Shown in pieces: positions 183-47,646 of a DNA stretch of 64,000 bases. Below the pieces are notes generated by a model that saw only the letters and a list, made by a program, of their open reading frames with translations, did not search any database and was not told where the DNA came from. The translations under genes were made by a program, and so were the position numbers. Source of the stretch: Candidatus Omnitrophota bacterium (lineage in GTDB: Bacteria > Hinthialibacterota > Hinthialibacteria > Hinthialibacterales > JAKPRU01); NCBI GenBank assembly GCA_029570205.1, contig JAKQSI010000004.1, positions 1 to 64,000 of the forward strand, read 5' to 3'. Within the stretch, counting starts at the first letter, position 1. Each line of letters starts with the position of its first letter.

Positions 183-482
183 TTAATCCCCCCTCAGTTT
201 CAGTACCCGATAAACCCTGTCCCTGCATTTCCGGCACAGGTCCAGACGAAACGGAAAATGAACCTCATCCTGAAGGTCTTCTTCGGTGCGTTTCTCCAAC
301 TCCCGAATCAGGCGTTCTATTTCCGCCCGGATACTTTCGGAAGATCGTTCCAGGTCATCTTCGATTTCCAGTCCATCGAACGCGCAAAAGATTTCCCCCC
401 GGAAAATGAATCGCGGACGCCCTTCCTCCAGCAATTCTCCGCACAAATCACACAGAAACTTGATGCCTCTTTGTTTCTTCAT
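183..482 (-). CDS. Small Cys-rich (zinc-ribbon-like) protein
   Basis: A 99-aa protein of unknown function. It has two CxxC knuckles, CDLC near residue 11 and CRKC near residue 83, about 70 residues apart, which suggests one metal site closing over a charged helical middle rich in Glu and Arg (residues 43-72). The gene starts 19 nt after the stop of the upstream ATPase and is probably co-transcribed with it, preceded by a weak GGGA ribosome site. It may be an accessory or regulator of that ATPase, but this rests only on adjacency. I recognise no family beyond a generic zinc-binding fold. Confidence 0.7.
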   Translation of the reverse strand: MKKQRGIKFLCDLCGELLEEGRPRFIFRGEIFCAFDGLEIEDDLERSSESIRAEIERLIRELEKRTEEDLQDEVHFPFRLDLCRKCRDRVYRVLKLRGD

Positions 483-501
483 TGTTTCCCGTCGGAGAGG
501 A

Positions 502-2385
502 TTACCGTTGCCAATCCGAGAACTTATTCCGAAGGTCCTTGAGGAATCTCCCCAAAGATCGGTCTTTGACTTTATTCAGATCCATGGCAAGAACGATATC
601 CTTGGCATGTTCCATTCCCCCGATAATCGGCAACACACCGGATTCTCGAACCGCATCGAGGAGCTGATGCTTATACCGATCACGCTCGCATTTGCCTCCG
701 GGTGCCCAGCATCCCGCGCCGAGCACCTTCTTGAATGCCGCCGAGTCGATGAGAAGCCATCGTTCGATGTGCGGATTCGGAAGGGCACAGACTGTCAGGT
801 CCTTCAGATCCCCCGCCCTATTCAGTATCTCATTCCGCCGTTTTGTGATTCCCTGACAATTTGCGTCTATTGCAGCGATGAGCAGGTCCGGCAAATTCCC
901 GGTCTGCAAGTCCCGAACGTATCTCTGGAGTTCATGCAAAACCATTCCGCTCCCACCGGATGCGTTCAGTATCTTCAAATTGATTTCAATACCGGATTCC
1001 TGTGCCAGTCTACGCACCAATCCGCCGACTACTTCTTGGTGCCCGAAATCTTCAACAAACATCCGGATTTCACGCATCGAAATCCCCCGCAGAATTCGCT
1101 CTGACATGAGGCCGTCCAGTCCCTCTTGGATGTCCTTGTCCCTCCATAATTCGCCCTTCCCCCATTGAGCGCATGAGTCGATCCGGGTACATCCATCTTG
1201 TTTCTGACATACATAGAGCGATTCGTCAGGGATTCGATCCGGCAGGATGGGAGAATGAGTCGTTACGATCAACTGGGTCTCGCCCCGCGCGCTTCGGGTT
1301 TTCAGTAACTCCGCAATCATCTGAATTCTTCGCGGATGAATCCCATTCTCCGGTTCCTCAAATCCGATCAACGCCGGGAGCTCTTTCACTCCTTCCAGGG
1401 CGAGAAGTCCCAATACCCGCAAGGTCCCCTCCGATACCACACCCGCTGGAATGGGGATATCCCCTTCACGCAAAACAAGCTCCACTTCGCCCAAGTCGCT
1501 GACTTTTACCTCGATTCCAGTGACCTCCGGGATGACCATTCGAAGCGCTTTCTCGACAGCATTAAATTGTCTTGGATTAAGGCTCTTCAGTGTATTCAAA
1601 AAGGAGGCCAGATCTTCACCCATCAGCCCGATATGGCGAACCTCTTTCACAGGATTCTTGGCCCGCATTCGCTCCCTCGGCTCGAAATAAAAAAAGAGCC
1701 AACTCGCCAATTCCCGTTGCATCGCCACAAGATGAGGATAATGGGGAGGATAGTGCGGCATAGATAGGATGGAGTGATCCAAATAGCGGTCATAATAGGT
1801 TGGGTGCGCCTGCCCCTCAAAGCGCAAATGCAGGCGGTCTTTTTCCGTATCCCTTTCCAGAAAAGGGAGTCTCTTGCGGGTCGGCTCTCCCTGGGTGTTC
1901 AAAGCCGCCAGGTATTCATCGGCAACCCGCAAGACCCCGGATTTGGGCAGAATCTCCACACTGATTCGATACCGCAGGAACTTCTCTCGGACAAAAGAGG
2001 CTGGTCTTGATGCCGACGTTTTTGCCTTGCCCACTCCGTTAGCCTTGGACGGATTCATTTCCCGAATCCGACGGTTGACGGAATCGATTGTGGCCGGAGA
2101 CAGTTCAATGTCCGCCTCCAGGGTAAATGACGGCGCTTCCTGGTCCAGCAATCCTCTGATTCCTTCCGGACCAAAGGCGAATGACTCCAGCGGCTTTCCC
2201 CGATACGGCGGCTCAAATGCCTCTTTGAGTGTGCGGCTTGTCGCGATCCGCGACAAAAGCTGTAGTGCATCCAGGAGATTGCTTTTTCCGCTTGCATTCG
2301 GTCCGAAAAGCACTGAAAGTCCTGTCAACTTGATATCCAAGTCTCGAATCGACTTATACCCCTGGATTCTTATCCTCTTGAGCAT
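502..2385 (-). CDS. AAA/ABC-type ATPase with C-terminal TOPRIM/RloB-like region (OLD-like)
   Basis: A 627-aa protein. The N-terminus is a RecF/SMC-like ATPase: Walker A GPNASGKSN at about residues 28-36, a signature region near VVSEGTLRVLGLLALEG, Walker B ALIGFEEPENGIHP and the switch histidine in TTHSPILPD. The last 180 residues begin with FVEDFGHQEVV, followed by AIDANCQG and LPNPHIERWLL. This layout resembles the acidic core of TOPRIM/DUF4276/RloB-like domains. OLD-family and RloAB-type proteins with this architecture are nucleases often involved in phage defence; that function is inferred here. A GGAG site lies 7 nt before the ATG. The gene leads a two-gene unit with the Cys-rich protein downstream. 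No GajB, PtuB or restriction partner is seen. Confidence 0.85.
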   Translation of the reverse strand: MLKRIRIQGYKSIRDLDIKLTGLSVLFGPNASGKSNLLDALQLLSRIATSRTLKEAFEPPYRGKPLESFAFGPEGIRGLLDQEAPSFTLEADIELSPATIDSVNRRIREMNPSKANGVGKAKTSASRPASFVREKFLRYRISVEILPKSGVLRVADEYLAALNTQGEPTRKRLPFLERDTEKDRLHLRFEGQAHPTYYDRYLDHSILSMPHYPPHYPHLVAMQRELASWLFFYFEPRERMRAKNPVKEVRHIGLMGEDLASFLNTLKSLNPRQFNAVEKALRMVIPEVTGIEVKVSDLGEVELVLREGDIPIPAGVVSEGTLRVLGLLALEGVKELPALIGFEEPENGIHPRRIQMIAELLKTRSARGETQLIVTTHSPILPDRIPDESLYVCQKQDGCTRIDSCAQWGKGELWRDKDIQEGLDGLMSERILRGISMREIRMFVEDFGHQEVVGGLVRRLAQESGIEINLKILNASGGSGMVLHELQRYVRDLQTGNLPDLLIAAIDANCQGITKRRNEILNRAGDLKDLTVCALPNPHIERWLLIDSAAFKKVLGAGCWAPGGKCERDRYKHQLLDAVRESGVLPIIGGMEHAKDIVLAMDLNKVKDRSLGRFLKDLRNKFSDWQR

Positions 2386-2525: not shown

Positions 2526-3623
2526 TCACAACACCCCAACTTCCCCCCGCAGCGGCGCCAGAATCTCCCGAATCGCCGTCACAAATAGCGTTTCCAACAC
2601 TCCCCGGCCCAGCGACAGCCCCGGTATCCCGCATTCCTCCAGCTTCCAGGATGCCTCCTCTCCAATTCCCCGGCAGATCAGCGCATCCGCTTCAATATCG
2701 ACCAGGCAGGAAATCACCCCGCTCCCATCTCCTGCCGTGCAGGCAATTCTGCGAAGATTCCTTCCCTGCAAGAGTCCTATTGGTTCCGGCACAGACAATT
2801 CGGGAAACGCATCTACGGCTCGGCGCACAAGATCCTCAATCGACAACGGTTCCTCGAACGTCCCGATCCAGAGGCATTGACGCGGGTCCCGAAATTCCCG
2901 CAACTCGTAGATATCATACGCGGGTTCCTCGTAGGGATGCGCATTCCACAGTGCGGAAATCACATCCGCCAGACGCGGAATCGGACACAGCATCTCCAAT
3001 CGTTCCTCCGGCACGAATTCCAACTTGCCCCGCTCACCGATTGTCGGATTCGACTGTTCGGACCCCCGGAAACTCCCCTCACCCGATGAATGGAACGAAC
3101 AGAGATCATATTCCCCGATTCTTCCCGCTCCCGCCTGGGCCATCGCAAGCCGTACATTGTCTGCATACTCTTTGGGTACAAACGTGACAATTTTAACGTG
3201 CCCTGACTGGGGTTTGGGTAAGACCGGGTGCGGTTCCGACAACCCCAGACGTTCCACCAGTAAGGCCGATAGCCCGCGCGGATGCGCGTTTAAACCGGAC
3301 CCTGCCGCGTAGACCGCAATCCCCGTATGAAGCAGCAGCCGAAGCAGGTCCGGCCAGGGCGAATACATATTCTCGGTGATCTTCCATCGGTCCGGCAATG
3401 GACGGGAGATCACCATGAAATCCACACCGCTTCGTTCTGCCTGCCGAAGAATCTCGCGAGTCACCCGATATGCCGGCCAGACCATTTTCACCGGGCGATC
3501 AGGGTCTCCGCATTGAAGTCTCCCGGAGTCCCGCGATTCGTCGCACGCGGATGGAATCGCACCATCCAGAAAATCGGCTATCCGGCGGACAGTCAAATCG
3601 CTTGGGTCCATCACATCCTCCAT
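2526..3623 (-). CDS. Nif3-like protein lacking the metal-ligand motifs
   Basis: A 365-aa protein with the three-part layout of bacterial Nif3/YqfO proteins. The YqfO-type middle domain is well kept (about residues 140-245: KIVTFVPKEYAD, AGAGRIGEYDLCSF, NPTIGERG). In the flanking Nif3 domains the dinuclear metal site looks lost. The usual HH of the ...HHP motif is replaced by SR (ISRPLP, residues 72-77), and the C-terminal GHxxxE region reads GRGVLE. The family is a hexameric dimetal protein of uncertain biochemistry. This copy probably keeps the fold but not the metal centre. The start codon overlaps the stop of the upstream membrane protein (TGATG), so the two are translationally coupled. 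Confidence 0.85.
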   Translation of the reverse strand: MEDVMDPSDLTVRRIADFLDGAIPSACDESRDSGRLQCGDPDRPVKMVWPAYRVTREILRQAERSGVDFMVISRPLPDRWKITENMYSPWPDLLRLLLHTGIAVYAAGSGLNAHPRGLSALLVERLGLSEPHPVLPKPQSGHVKIVTFVPKEYADNVRLAMAQAGAGRIGEYDLCSFHSSGEGSFRGSEQSNPTIGERGKLEFVPEERLEMLCPIPRLADVISALWNAHPYEEPAYDIYELREFRDPRQCLWIGTFEEPLSIEDLVRRAVDAFPELSVPEPIGLLQGRNLRRIACTAGDGSGVISCLVDIEADALICRGIGEEASWKLEECGIPGLSLGRGVLETLFVTAIREILAPLRGEVGVL

Positions 3624-26976: not shown

Positions 26977-27543
26977 TCACCGCTCGTATGGATATTTGTT
27001 TGTCCATGAACCGGGCATGGGAGTGCAAATGGTTCCCTGGCTGCTGAGTCCGTTGGTAACGTCGTAAGGAATCGACCGTTCTGAAACCCGATCCATATCC
27101 GGCCCAACCGAACGGCAGAAGAAAGCGGCATTTTTGTTCATGTCCGCATACGCCCTGGCAGCCGGGTCACCGGTTCCATAAAACTCCGCCCTCATCTGGT
27201 AACCCGGTTCCTCATGATACTGCCCCTGATACCAACCGATCGTTTCCGAGGCGGTGATTCCCTCTTGCTGGAACGGATCTTTTAATGAGGTTGACAGGTA
27301 GGCAACCGGCGTGGTCACAAACCGATGCTGCGCCGGGTCTCCATCGAGATGCGGAGGCCAGCGGCTGTTATCGAGGTTGTACATTGTATAGGCGTCATTG
27401 ATTGCCTTCTCCTCGGAATAAACCCTGGCAATCGTGGCTTTCAAACGGGCATTGATGAAATTGGGTACGGCGATGGCGGCGAGAATGCCGATGATGGCAA
27501 CAACAATCAGAAGCTCAATCAGGGTGAATCCTCTGGGTCTCAT
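26977..27543 (-). CDS. Type II secretion/type IV pilus pseudopilin
   Basis: A 188-aa prepilin with a short basic leader, the cleavage and methylation site G-FTLIELL and the hydrophobic helix IVVAIIGILAAIAVPNF. A globular beta domain follows. The C-terminus (YDVTNGLSSQGT) is a variant of the YNPSNGxxSSGDV motif shared with three other pseudopilins in the window. I chose ATG 27543 (AGGGA about 10 nt upstream), which leaves a normal leader; ATG 27591, also with a fair ribosome site, would add 16 residues. Confidence 0.88.
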   Translation of the reverse strand: MRPRGFTLIELLIVVAIIGILAAIAVPNFINARLKATIARVYSEEKAINDAYTMYNLDNSRWPPHLDGDPAQHRFVTTPVAYLSTSLKDPFQQEGITASETIGWYQGQYHEEPGYQMRAEFYGTGDPAARAYADMNKNAAFFCRSVGPDMDRVSERSIPYDVTNGLSSQGTICTPMPGSWTNKYPYER

Positions 27544-27662
27544 CGGTTGCCATCCCTTCACAGGGGCGTTTTGACCGGAAAAATGACCCACCTTCCATTC
27601 GTTTATTCTATCATATTCATACTATCATACCCTGAAAACCCAGGAAGCAGATCAAAGGGCGA

Positions 27663-34374: not shown

Positions 34375-34896
34375 TTGAGAAAACACGCTTTTACCCTTAT
34401 TGAGCTCTTGATTGTCGTGGCCATTATCGGGATTCTCGCCGCTATCGCCGTTCCGAACTTCATGAACGCCCGGATGCGAGCCACCATTGCCCGAATGGAA
34501 TCCGATATGAAGGCCATCGGGGATGCTCTCATGATGTATCGGCTCGACAACAAGTGCTATTTCAACAACATGAGCAGCAACCCTTATCAGGAACTTCGGC
34601 CTCTGACAACTCCTGTTTCCTACATTGCCAGTATCCCGGCGGACCCGTTCCGCGTGCCGAACGCCAAGTATGCAAGCACGACAACGAACTACGATTATAC
34701 GGCCTATGGCGACGGAAAATGTGCAACGGATTGGTGTATTCATGGCCTCGGTCCCGATACGGATGAGGATGCCGGTAGTTGCGGTCCGGGTCCCGGCGCC
34801 AGAGAAGCTTTCAAGTCGCTTCTCTACAACCCTTCCAACGGAGTGGTCAGCAGCGGAGATGTGATTCACAATTCATGGTCCGGGTTGTCGTTCTGA
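34375..34896 (+). CDS. Pseudopilin, tandem copy 1
   Basis: A 173-aa prepilin with a minimal leader (MRKHA) before FTLIELL, a long hydrophobic helix and a globular part with several Cys (CYFNN, CATDWCIHG, CGPG). It ends YNPSNGVVSSGDVIHNSW. The start is a TTG, with AAGGTG about 8 nt upstream. It is about 60 percent identical by eye to the next pseudopilin, so the pair arose by tandem duplication. A terminator follows. Confidence 0.9.
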   Translation: MRKHAFTLIELLIVVAIIGILAAIAVPNFMNARMRATIARMESDMKAIGDALMMYRLDNKCYFNNMSSNPYQELRPLTTPVSYIASIPADPFRVPNAKYASTTTNYDYTAYGDGKCATDWCIHGLGPDTDEDAGSCGPGPGAREAFKSLLYNPSNGVVSSGDVIHNSWSGLSF

Positions 34897-34928
34897 TTGA
34901 GGGGCAAATGGACATCCGCACTCCCGCG

Positions 34929-34963
34929 AAAAAGGCCAAGGCTGCTAAAGTTGGCCTTTTTTG
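34929..34963 (+). terminator. Rho-independent terminator after pseudopilin 1
   Basis: AAAAAGGCCAA - 11-nt loop - TTGGCCTTTTTT: a stable stem followed by a run of six T, 33 nt after the pseudopilin stop. It separates the two pseudopilins into different transcripts. Confidence 0.85.
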
Positions 34964-35032
34964 ACTCACTTATCTGGTCTTTCGATTCCCGTCACGCTAC
35001 AATTAAAAAAAGCCTGGAAAGGTACCCCATGC

Positions 35033-35557
35033 ATGAGCAGGAAACACGCTTTTACCCTTATTGAGCTCCTGATTGTCGTGGCCATTATCGGAATCCTGGC
35101 CGCCATCGCCGTCCCGAATTTCATGAATGCACGGATGAAAGCCACTGTCGCCAAAATGGAAACCGATATGAAGGCACTGGGGGATGCGCTGATGATGTAT
35201 CGCATCGACAACAAGTGCTATTGGACACAGTTTGGAAGCAATCCGCCGCAGGAGCTACGGCCGCTGACCACGCCGGTGGCCTATATCGCCACCATCCCGC
35301 AGGACCCGTTCCGCAAGAACAGCAAGCTCTATCAGAGCACAACCAACAATTATGACTACTCTTCGTATGGTCCGGAGAAGTGCATAACGGACTGGCTCCT
35401 GCATGGCCTTGGACCGGACACGGACGAGGATATCAGTGTGGGTGGTTACGGCCCCAAGACCTCCGATTTGTTCAAAAAACTCCTCTATAATCCCAGCAAT
35501 GGCATCATCAGCAGCGGGGATGTCATCCACACCTCCTGGGCCGGGTTGTCGTTCTGA
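35033..35557 (+). CDS. Pseudopilin, tandem copy 2
   Basis: A 174-aa prepilin (MSRKHA before FTLIELL) with the same layout as copy 1: hydrophobic helix, NARMKATVAKMETDMKALGDALMMYRIDNKCY, a conserved ELRPLTTPVAYIATIPQDPFR strand-turn, and the end YNPSNGIISSGDVIHTSW. ATG 35033 with AAAGG about 10 nt upstream. The frame is open to 34961 but those codons cover the terminator and gap. Like copy 1 it may be a minor or major pseudopilin of a type II secretion or pilus-like system encoded elsewhere. Confidence 0.9.
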   Translation: MSRKHAFTLIELLIVVAIIGILAAIAVPNFMNARMKATVAKMETDMKALGDALMMYRIDNKCYWTQFGSNPPQELRPLTTPVAYIATIPQDPFRKNSKLYQSTTNNYDYSSYGPEKCITDWLLHGLGPDTDEDISVGGYGPKTSDLFKKLLYNPSNGIISSGDVIHTSWAGLSF

Positions 35558-45969: not shown

Positions 45970-47010
45970 TTATATCCAGCACTCATCCCGCAACTGCTGC
46001 CATGCGACCCGGATATGATCTGCTTTGAATAATTTCCTCTTGCGTTCATTCCAGTTCCATACACTTTCGACAGATTTCTCAGCAGACACGACTTCCGCGG
46101 GGTTCTCTTTGGATATCCAATGAATGGTTGCCAGCATTTCGAGGCAGTAGGGAGTTTCAAACCCTTCGATCAATTGGGTTACTCGATCAACTCGGTCCTG
46201 TGTTTCCTTTTGCCCAGCCAGGAATTCCTCTGTTTTCCGAATGGCCTCCGGCAAGACAAGAATGGTCGGCTCGAGCGCTTTTTGCGAGCGATCTCCGTAC
46301 CCCCGAATGAAATGCCCTTCCATGCGTTGAAGAACGTGGTGTAAAGCCTCGGCGTAAGGACCGTATTGATTTGCTGTGAAATTGAGGCGCAACGGCTCTC
46401 CTGTTTCCTGGAGAAAATAGGCGAGTTTCTGAACTTCCAGCATGGACAGTCGGTAGCCGGGGATTGCATATCGGTAAAGAATCGCCAGAATTGCCGCCCG
46501 ACTGGGGGTCATTTTGGGTGTCTTCGTTGCAACTCGCATTCGGTCGGGATGAGGAGCACCGGCAGGCTCGTAGAGTAAAATTCGAACGCTTTGCAGGTCT
46601 TCCAGCATTTCCTGAATCCGGGATCGGACTTCGTCCCAGTTCAGTCCACCGTTTCCGCACCCCAAAGGCGGCAAGGCAACAGAACGAATACCGTTGCGCG
46701 AAATCACTCTTACTAAGTCCCTCAACCCTTCTTCAATGTCTTGCATCCGGGAGCGGTCACGCCAGTGGCATTTGGTGGGAAAGTTGATAATGAAACGCGG
46801 ATTCACCATCGAGCCGGTACTGTAAACGAACATTTTCCCCGATTGAACTTCTTTCCGGTCGCAAGCCCGTTTGTAAGCGTCAAAATTTTCCGGGAATGCC
46901 TTCTTAAACTGAAGCGCGATCCCTTTGCCCATGACTCCCACCGTATTCACGGTATTCACAAGGGCTTCCACGTCTGCATCCAACAGGTTTCCGCGCAGAA
47001 TCTCGATCAT
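45970..47010 (-). CDS. darG: DarG antitoxin: macro-domain DNA ADP-ribosylglycohydrolase
   Basis: A 346-aa protein. Residues 1-155 are a macro domain (VNTVNTVGVMGKGIALQFK, NFPTKCHW with Lys80 matching the catalytic lysine of known DarG, PPLGCGNGGLNW) that removes ADP-ribose from thymidine. The C-terminal 180 residues (from about LSMLEVQKLAYFLQETGEPLRLNFTANQYGPY) are the toxin-binding domain with its DUF4065-like feature. AGGAG lies 9 nt before the ATG. It follows darT by 12 nt in the normal toxin-first order. Confidence 0.94.
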   Translation of the reverse strand: MIEILRGNLLDADVEALVNTVNTVGVMGKGIALQFKKAFPENFDAYKRACDRKEVQSGKMFVYSTGSMVNPRFIINFPTKCHWRDRSRMQDIEEGLRDLVRVISRNGIRSVALPPLGCGNGGLNWDEVRSRIQEMLEDLQSVRILLYEPAGAPHPDRMRVATKTPKMTPSRAAILAILYRYAIPGYRLSMLEVQKLAYFLQETGEPLRLNFTANQYGPYAEALHHVLQRMEGHFIRGYGDRSQKALEPTILVLPEAIRKTEEFLAGQKETQDRVDRVTQLIEGFETPYCLEMLATIHWISKENPAEVVSAEKSVESVWNWNERKRKLFKADHIRVAWQQLRDECWI

Positions 47011-47022
47011 GGCCTCAGTCTC

Positions 47023-47646
47023 CTAATAGTACCAATCGCGATGAACCGCGATTTCCGGCTGATGTTCTGCGGAACGAGTGATTTCAAAAACCTGTTTGCC
47101 GATAGTATCATCGAATACGCCGATTATACCGAACAGATCCCAGGGCATAAAGTCCCTTACCAGAAACTCAGCCTGCCGACGTCGCGTACGGTCCGGGTCT
47201 TGATCGGTGTCATGCCAATAGCGTTCTTTCATCATATTCCAGTCAATTCGACTGAAATCGCCAGGACTGTTGAAGAATTGCGTGATGTCCATGGCAGCGT
47301 GTCCGTCAGTGAATAGGAATGGAAGGTTATGCGTGATCACTTGCTCCACGGATGAAACAAGGTAAAGGATATCCTTTTGGGTTCCGCAGAATCCCTTAAC
47401 CTTGCCGCAATAAACTGCATAAAGCATGGGCGATCTTGGGGCAAAGTAGAATGGCACATAATCGCCCAGGGTTCCGTAAGGTGCTATGGGAACGGGCCGG
47501 ATCGCGCGGCTCTGCCGGATATGTTCATGTGCGATTGAATTCAGATTCACACCATGCGTTTTTATCCGGAGGTCGTTGAATATCCCTCCGGTCGAGCAAA
47601 TACTCTGCAAATTCCCGATATGCGTGATGTGATAGATCTCTGTCAT
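47023..47646 (-). CDS. darT: DarT toxin: ssDNA thymidine ADP-ribosyltransferase
   Basis: A 207-aa DUF4433 protein of the DarT2 type. It uses NAD+ to ADP-ribosylate thymidine in specific single-stranded DNA motifs, blocking replication. Seen: the N-terminal YHITHIGNLQSI, VPFYFAPRSPMLY, and the catalytic Glu160 in RRRQAEFLVRDF. The start lies 4 nt after the stop of the large GH116-like gene, and the GAGG serving as ribosome site overlaps that stop region, so it is read from that transcript or a promoter inside that gene. Confidence 0.94.
   Translation of the reverse strand: MTEIYHITHIGNLQSICSTGGIFNDLRIKTHGVNLNSIAHEHIRQSRAIRPVPIAPYGTLGDYVPFYFAPRSPMLYAVYCGKVKGFCGTQKDILYLVSSVEQVITHNLPFLFTDGHAAMDITQFFNSPGDFSRIDWNMMKERYWHDTDQDPDRTRRRQAEFLVRDFMPWDLFGIIGVFDDTIGKQVFEITRSAEHQPEIAVHRDWYY

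Follow-up and report, generated by a model that had tools for sequence, protein, structure and literature searches.

An ATPase and DUF4276 gene pair, probably of the candidate defence system HEC-01, joined in one reading frame at a G run in a Candidatus Omnitrophota bacterium

Does a single open reading frame that carries an ATPase and a DUF4276-type tail, followed by a small gene for a protein with two CxxC motifs, represent a new single-operon defence system? The question is raised by the first genes of the window, the stretch of 64,000 nucleotides analyzed here, which runs from the end of contig C93, in a 4.39 Mb assembly of 131 contigs. A preliminary description had proposed such a system and recognized the pairing in no named one. 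We consider it fairly likely that the locus is a two-gene ATPase and DUF4276 pair of the kind listed in PADLOC as the candidate defence system HEC-01, that the loss of one base from a G run has joined its overlapping genes, and that the 99-aa gene is uninvolved; nuclease activity, sensing and defence are putative functions of the pair.

Gene layout and the junction of the two halves

Relatives were collected by scanning one genome per species, which returned 80 relatives from many phyla, approximately 58-89% identical over the ATPase. The genus has two other genomes, G008 and G009. Both open reading frames of the locus (Table 1) are genuine, as first supposed: they are open throughout, and the window genes have dN/dS values of 0.05-0.19 against a congener, so that they are conserved and not chance reading frames. 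Against G009, the two halves of the longer frame have values of 0.12 and 0.19 (0.19 for the DUF4276 part), in keeping with purifying selection on both. A gap of 19 nt separates this 627-aa frame from the 99-aa frame. The flank with the NIF3/DUF34-family gene is common to the two congeners, being complete in G009 and represented by its 3' end in G008.

Table 1. Features of the ATPase and DUF4276 locus in the window
Feature	Position	Strand	Evidence and remarks
Joined ATPase and DUF4276 open reading frame	502-2385	minus	Open, 627 aa
ATPase part, residues 1-434 (AAA_21/AAA_15, OLD/RecF-like ABC ATPase)	1084-2385	minus	Pfam AAA_21, PADLOC HEC-01A; separate gene in relatives
Junction GCGGGGGATTTCGATGCGTGA	1070-1090	minus	Alignment with L009 and L010; pattern located; 8-nt overlap in 68/71 relatives
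DUF4276 part, residues 437-627 plus stop (putative Toprim/RloB-like domain)	502-1077	minus	AlphaFold2, VIA-align, Foldseek, HEC-01B, conservation
99-aa protein gene, two CxxC motifs	183-482	minus	Adjoins pair; phylum-conserved; not part of the system
NIF3/DUF34-family gene, upstream of pair	2526-3623	minus	Pfam DUF34_NIF3 E 5e-21; not part of the system

The two halves had been taken to form one protein, which the relatives do not support as a design. Junctions were counted over the 71 of the 80 relatives in which both halves could be located close together. Of these, 68 have two separate genes with an overlap of exactly 8 nt: the start codon of the second gene (ATG, rarely GTG) is in the +1 frame, 8 nt ahead of the point where the ATPase stop ends, and the junction typically reads GAYTTYGATGCGTGA; the ATPase then ends in RGDFDA. 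Two of the remaining three (L035 and L040) keep the ATPase stop and are without that start, and in L054 the genes are approximately 1 kb apart. None of the 71 has the fused form. The window still holds GATTTCGATGCGTGA, but its G run (1084-1088) counts five Gs versus six in L009 and L010, its two closest relatives. The start of the second gene (ATG, 1075-1077) and the stop of the first (TGA, 1070-1072, now out-of-frame) are left over in the window. The one-frame state thus hinges on a single missing base in the G run, which joins the ATPase frame to the DUF4276 frame and, because the overlap is otherwise unchanged, is either of very recent origin or an error. We considered programmed frameshifting in this run and rejected it, because relatives do not conserve the run and a start codon of its own is available to the second gene. 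On the evidence of these alignments, the fusion is peculiar to the window sequence, and a mutation or a sequence error would be its cause.

A sequencing or assembly error, with an ordinary two-gene pair in the real genome, is a serious possibility that we rate somewhat below an even chance. The missing base falls in a homopolymer, the assembly is in many contigs, and the overlap, with six Gs in both close relatives, is otherwise perfectly kept; however, the compared sequence holds no other uncompensated coding indel. No other clear frameshift appears when the window is compared with matched stretches of G009, so that sequence errors seem rare and a real mutation is mildly favoured. We are more doubtful that the deletion is real and that the 627-aa fusion is produced and functions as a genuine single-protein variant, in the manner of the occasional AriA-AriB fusions of PARIS. 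The joined frame is open, its DUF4276 part retains a dN/dS of 0.19 against the congener, and single-gene AriAB fusions have been reported (PMC10568477), but the deletion sits in a G run, deprives the ATPase of its conserved RGDFDA terminus, leaves the overlap otherwise as it was and has no counterpart among the relatives counted.

Two further observations concern other parts of the window. A complete DarTG pair, a known DNA ADP-ribosylating toxin-antitoxin defence system, occupies 45970-47010 and 47023-47646 on the minus strand (DarT, Pfam E 8e-63 and PADLOC E 5e-70; DarG, PADLOC E 2e-138). Stretches of approximately 80-160 bp (about 27400-27550 and 34380-35210) match dozens of G009 sites on many contigs with approximately 75-90% identity, which suggests dispersed repeats or a repeated gene start.

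Folds and the putative active site

The ATPase part retains all of its catalytic motifs, as had been claimed. Walker A, signature, Walker B and H-loop motifs (GPNASGKS, 28-35; SEGTLR, 318-323; FEEPENG, 342-348; TTHSP, 375-379) are nearly invariant in 76 sequences. Pfam AAA_21 matches this part with an E-value of 2e-30, and the best of all PADLOC models, whose assignments were judged by E-values and model rank, is HEC-01A (PDLC04184, E 5e-55). The nearest solved sequence is an OLD-family protein (6p74, E 3e-10). NCBIfam MAD3 also matches (E 3e-41), with 141.9 bits against a cut-off of 420.

In the DUF4276 part, the acidic residues that had been likened to those of DUF4276 and RloB lie in the motifs FVEDF (443-447), AIDANC (505-510) and PNPHIERW (536-543) and vary little or not at all among 63 sequences. 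Invariant residues are E445, D507, N509, C510, E541, C559, C566 and K572, and nearly invariant ones are D446, H449 and H539. Three of these, C510, C559 and C566, lie outside the positions that correspond to the OLD site and possibly form a metal site. Pfam DUF4276 (PF14103) aligns over its full length with scores of 22.1, 26.4, 29.7 and 29.7 bits, below the gathering cut-off of 30.2. The PADLOC HEC-01B models lead for this part, with best E-values of 2e-5, 3e-7 and 2e-6 in three sequences, weak values that point to a divergent branch. A search of solved structures with the DUF4276 profile gave nothing credible, no AriB match was obtained at E-values up to 1, and the Pfam search listed only DUF4276 and E3_binding, without RloB. 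A literature search on DUF4276 found no paper.

An AlphaFold2 model of this part, built with 63 sequences, reached a pLDDT of 95.5 and consists of four strands alternating with helices, followed by a helical part. The expectation that the tail would have a nuclease fold was upheld in part. With VIA-align, the Toprim region of the Burkholderia pseudomallei OLD protein (6nk8) came second among 1000 chains, with Z 8.8 over an aligned 166 residues (only slightly higher than the Z 8.5 over 132 residues of lumazine synthases), Xanthomonas campestris OLD entries were also listed (Z about 7), and an RloB-like protein ranked second in a Foldseek search of viral models. Plain Foldseek against the PDB had only general Rossmann-like folds and no Toprim protein among its top 50, so that the case for a Toprim fold is built on topology, coverage and motifs.

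The B. pseudomallei OLD protein coordinates two magnesium ions through E400, E404, D455, D457, T506 and E508, with help from K562 (PMC6755086). By motif mapping as opposed to superposition, these site residues correspond in order and with similar spacing to E445, H449, D507, N509, H539, E541 and K572. Of the Toprim acidic signature, the Glu after strand 1 is invariant, and the DxD after strand 3 reads D-x-N in all 63 sequences. Relative to the OLD site, N thus replaces the second D and H replaces two other ligands, one of them a metal-B acid, so that catalysis is not assured. The model and these comparisons suggest an OLD-Toprim/RloB-like fold and a nuclease-type protein, for which we infer nuclease activity.

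Loss of the putative nuclease gene and genomic setting

The two genes of the pair have fared differently. An intact DUF4276 gene is present at 64 of the 80 loci versus an intact ATPase gene at 78 (Fisher p = 7e-4, frames counted by profile); the nuclease gene is broken or lost at 16 loci and the ATPase gene at 2, counts in which whole-gene loss of the ATPase would be missed because the loci were found mostly through ATPase peptides. Random errors would be expected to fall more often on the ATPase gene, which is over twice the length of its partner. Frameshifts, truncations, internal deletions or absence of the DUF4276 gene, with the ATPase mostly intact, occur in L010, L011, L012, L013, L022, L036, L037, L042, L045, L065, L066, L078, L080, L086, L087 and L088; the first of these is the congener G008, in which most of the gene is gone by internal deletion. 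This bias is in keeping with a costly effector that a harmless ATPase keeps in check. The bias and the deletion in G008 are also what a decaying locus would give, with the fusion as one among several types of lesion by which the nuclease part is inactivated. We regard this as rather unlikely, as the DUF4276 part of the window keeps every invariant residue, an open frame and its own ATG.

The setting of the relatives bears on whether the pair serves defence. HEC stands for Hma-embedded candidate (PMC12988326); HECs were named in a preprint (bioRxiv 2024.01.29.577857), to go by its citation in PMC12255303, and HEC-01 has been reported in a genome survey (PMC12724379). Our literature search found no published test of HEC-01. 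The flanking genes of the relatives (n=97) include four HmaA and five HmaB matches. In L014, L016, L019, L025 and L034, an HmaB-like methylase gene begins within the last bases of the nuclease gene, and in the last four of these a large gene of helicase size lies just upstream of the pair. These five relatives thus have defence genes beside the pair, in an Hma setting, but many relatives sit among metabolic genes, most flanking genes being metabolic, and the window pair is not beside Hma and lies in no defence island. A search for phage or plasmid carriage of close relatives gave no match. Because the pair matches HEC-01 and several relatives have Hma neighbours, the idea of a defence function stands, as that of a known candidate.

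The same genome carries a second, distant ATPase/DUF4276-type pair (L002, contig C86 of G000), whose two genes at 1429-2667 and 791-1483 on the minus strand overlap and match HEC-01A (E 4e-41) and HEC-01B (E 7e-6).

That the pair is instead a housekeeping ATPase and nuclease is unlikely. The locus is common to three congeners, metabolic surroundings are frequent among relatives, and some OLD proteins, such as Cran1, are not defensive (PMC12796447); set against this are its patchy distribution (4 of the 14 genomes of the phylum), an ATPase identity of about 60-70% across distant phyla, the Hma neighbours and the frequent loss of the nuclease. We are no more inclined to a bolder reading of the variant Toprim-like centre (E, H, D, N, H, E and K with three invariant cysteines) and of the repeated nuclease loss with the ATPase kept, by which the ATPase would have a job of its own, for example neutralizing the effector of related systems, and the fused form would be a working single chain.

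The 99-aa protein, whose two CxxC motifs are conserved in its orthologues, had been proposed as a functional partner. Its orthologues occur in 11 of the 14 genomes of the phylum, and seven of those 11 are without the ATPase. Six genomes of the neighbouring family carry the gene free-standing: in all six the upstream neighbour is on the opposite strand, and in five so is the downstream one. G006 has both the gene and the pair, on different contigs. Homologues of the pair without the small protein, which the preliminary description had named as grounds for refutation, do occur: outside this genus, none of the relatives has the gene beside the pair; congeners aside, small CxxC frames lie downstream of the pair in only two relatives and look unrelated, and no conserved third gene was found beside the pair among relatives. 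The fold model of the protein (pLDDT 52.6) was too poor for use. Although the genes are adjacent in the window and their order is the same in two congeners, this distribution makes a three-part operon of an ATPase-nuclease fusion and a zinc-ribbon partner highly improbable, and we reject it. Most likely, the pair was inserted beside the conserved 99-aa gene, between that gene and the NIF3-family gene.

Proposed mechanism and kinship with known systems

For the two-gene pair, we hypothesize a mechanism modelled on OLD and PARIS. The first protein, an OLD/RecF-like ABC ATPase, would bind the nuclease subunit and hold it back, sense an infection signal through its nucleotide cycle and then free or activate the nuclease. 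The latter would cut DNA or RNA with two metals at E445, H449, D507, N509, H539 and E541, aided by K572. The overlap of 8 nt would couple translation such that both proteins are made together. By analogy with AriA and AriB, the ATPase is thus most likely a sensor or gate that controls a two-metal nuclease effector.

The kinship to ATPase-nuclease defence pairs first proposed for the locus is borne out by the HEC-01A and HEC-01B matches, the OLD Toprim alignment and the RloB-like viral match, and the named systems resemble it to different degrees. MADS shares the ATPase, which matches MAD3 with a score (142 bits) far under the cut-off, and no other mad genes were seen. RloB is similar in the Foldseek match of the DUF4276 part to an RloB-like viral protein and in what we take to be a similar NPxxExW-type motif, whereas the Pfam RloB model has no match and DUF4276 is a different Pfam family. 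The OLD nucleases (Class 1/2 and Gabija GajA) have a related ATPase, a Toprim and helical part, and the same motif order and spacing; unlike the window pair, they are by design single-chain proteins and have DxD, where the window has DxN and three invariant cysteines. PARIS (AriA/AriB, Class 4 OLD) likewise consists of an ATPase and a Toprim-type nuclease encoded by separate adjacent genes that are sometimes fused (PMC10568477, PMC12409363), and a sensor and effector logic is likely common to both; its AriB cleaves host tRNA (PMC12409363). It differs in that AriB models find no match here and in that the window site has N and H where a classical Toprim has D and E.

The closest likeness in gene content is to HEC-01, which answers the impression that the pairing belonged to no named system. 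Adjacent ATPase (HEC-01A, up to E 5e-55) and DUF4276 (HEC-01B) genes are common to both, and the pairs of several relatives adjoin Hma helicase and methylase genes or lie between them; the window pair departs from this in its divergent second subunit (E about 1e-6), in the joining of its genes by a one-base deletion and in having no Hma beside it. Neither the fusion nor the small partner thus defines a new system, and the pair is a further member of a known candidate kind. HEC-01 in turn gains an exact gene boundary in the 8-nt overlap, a candidate set of active-site residues and a pattern of lesions pointing to DUF4276 as the costly effector.
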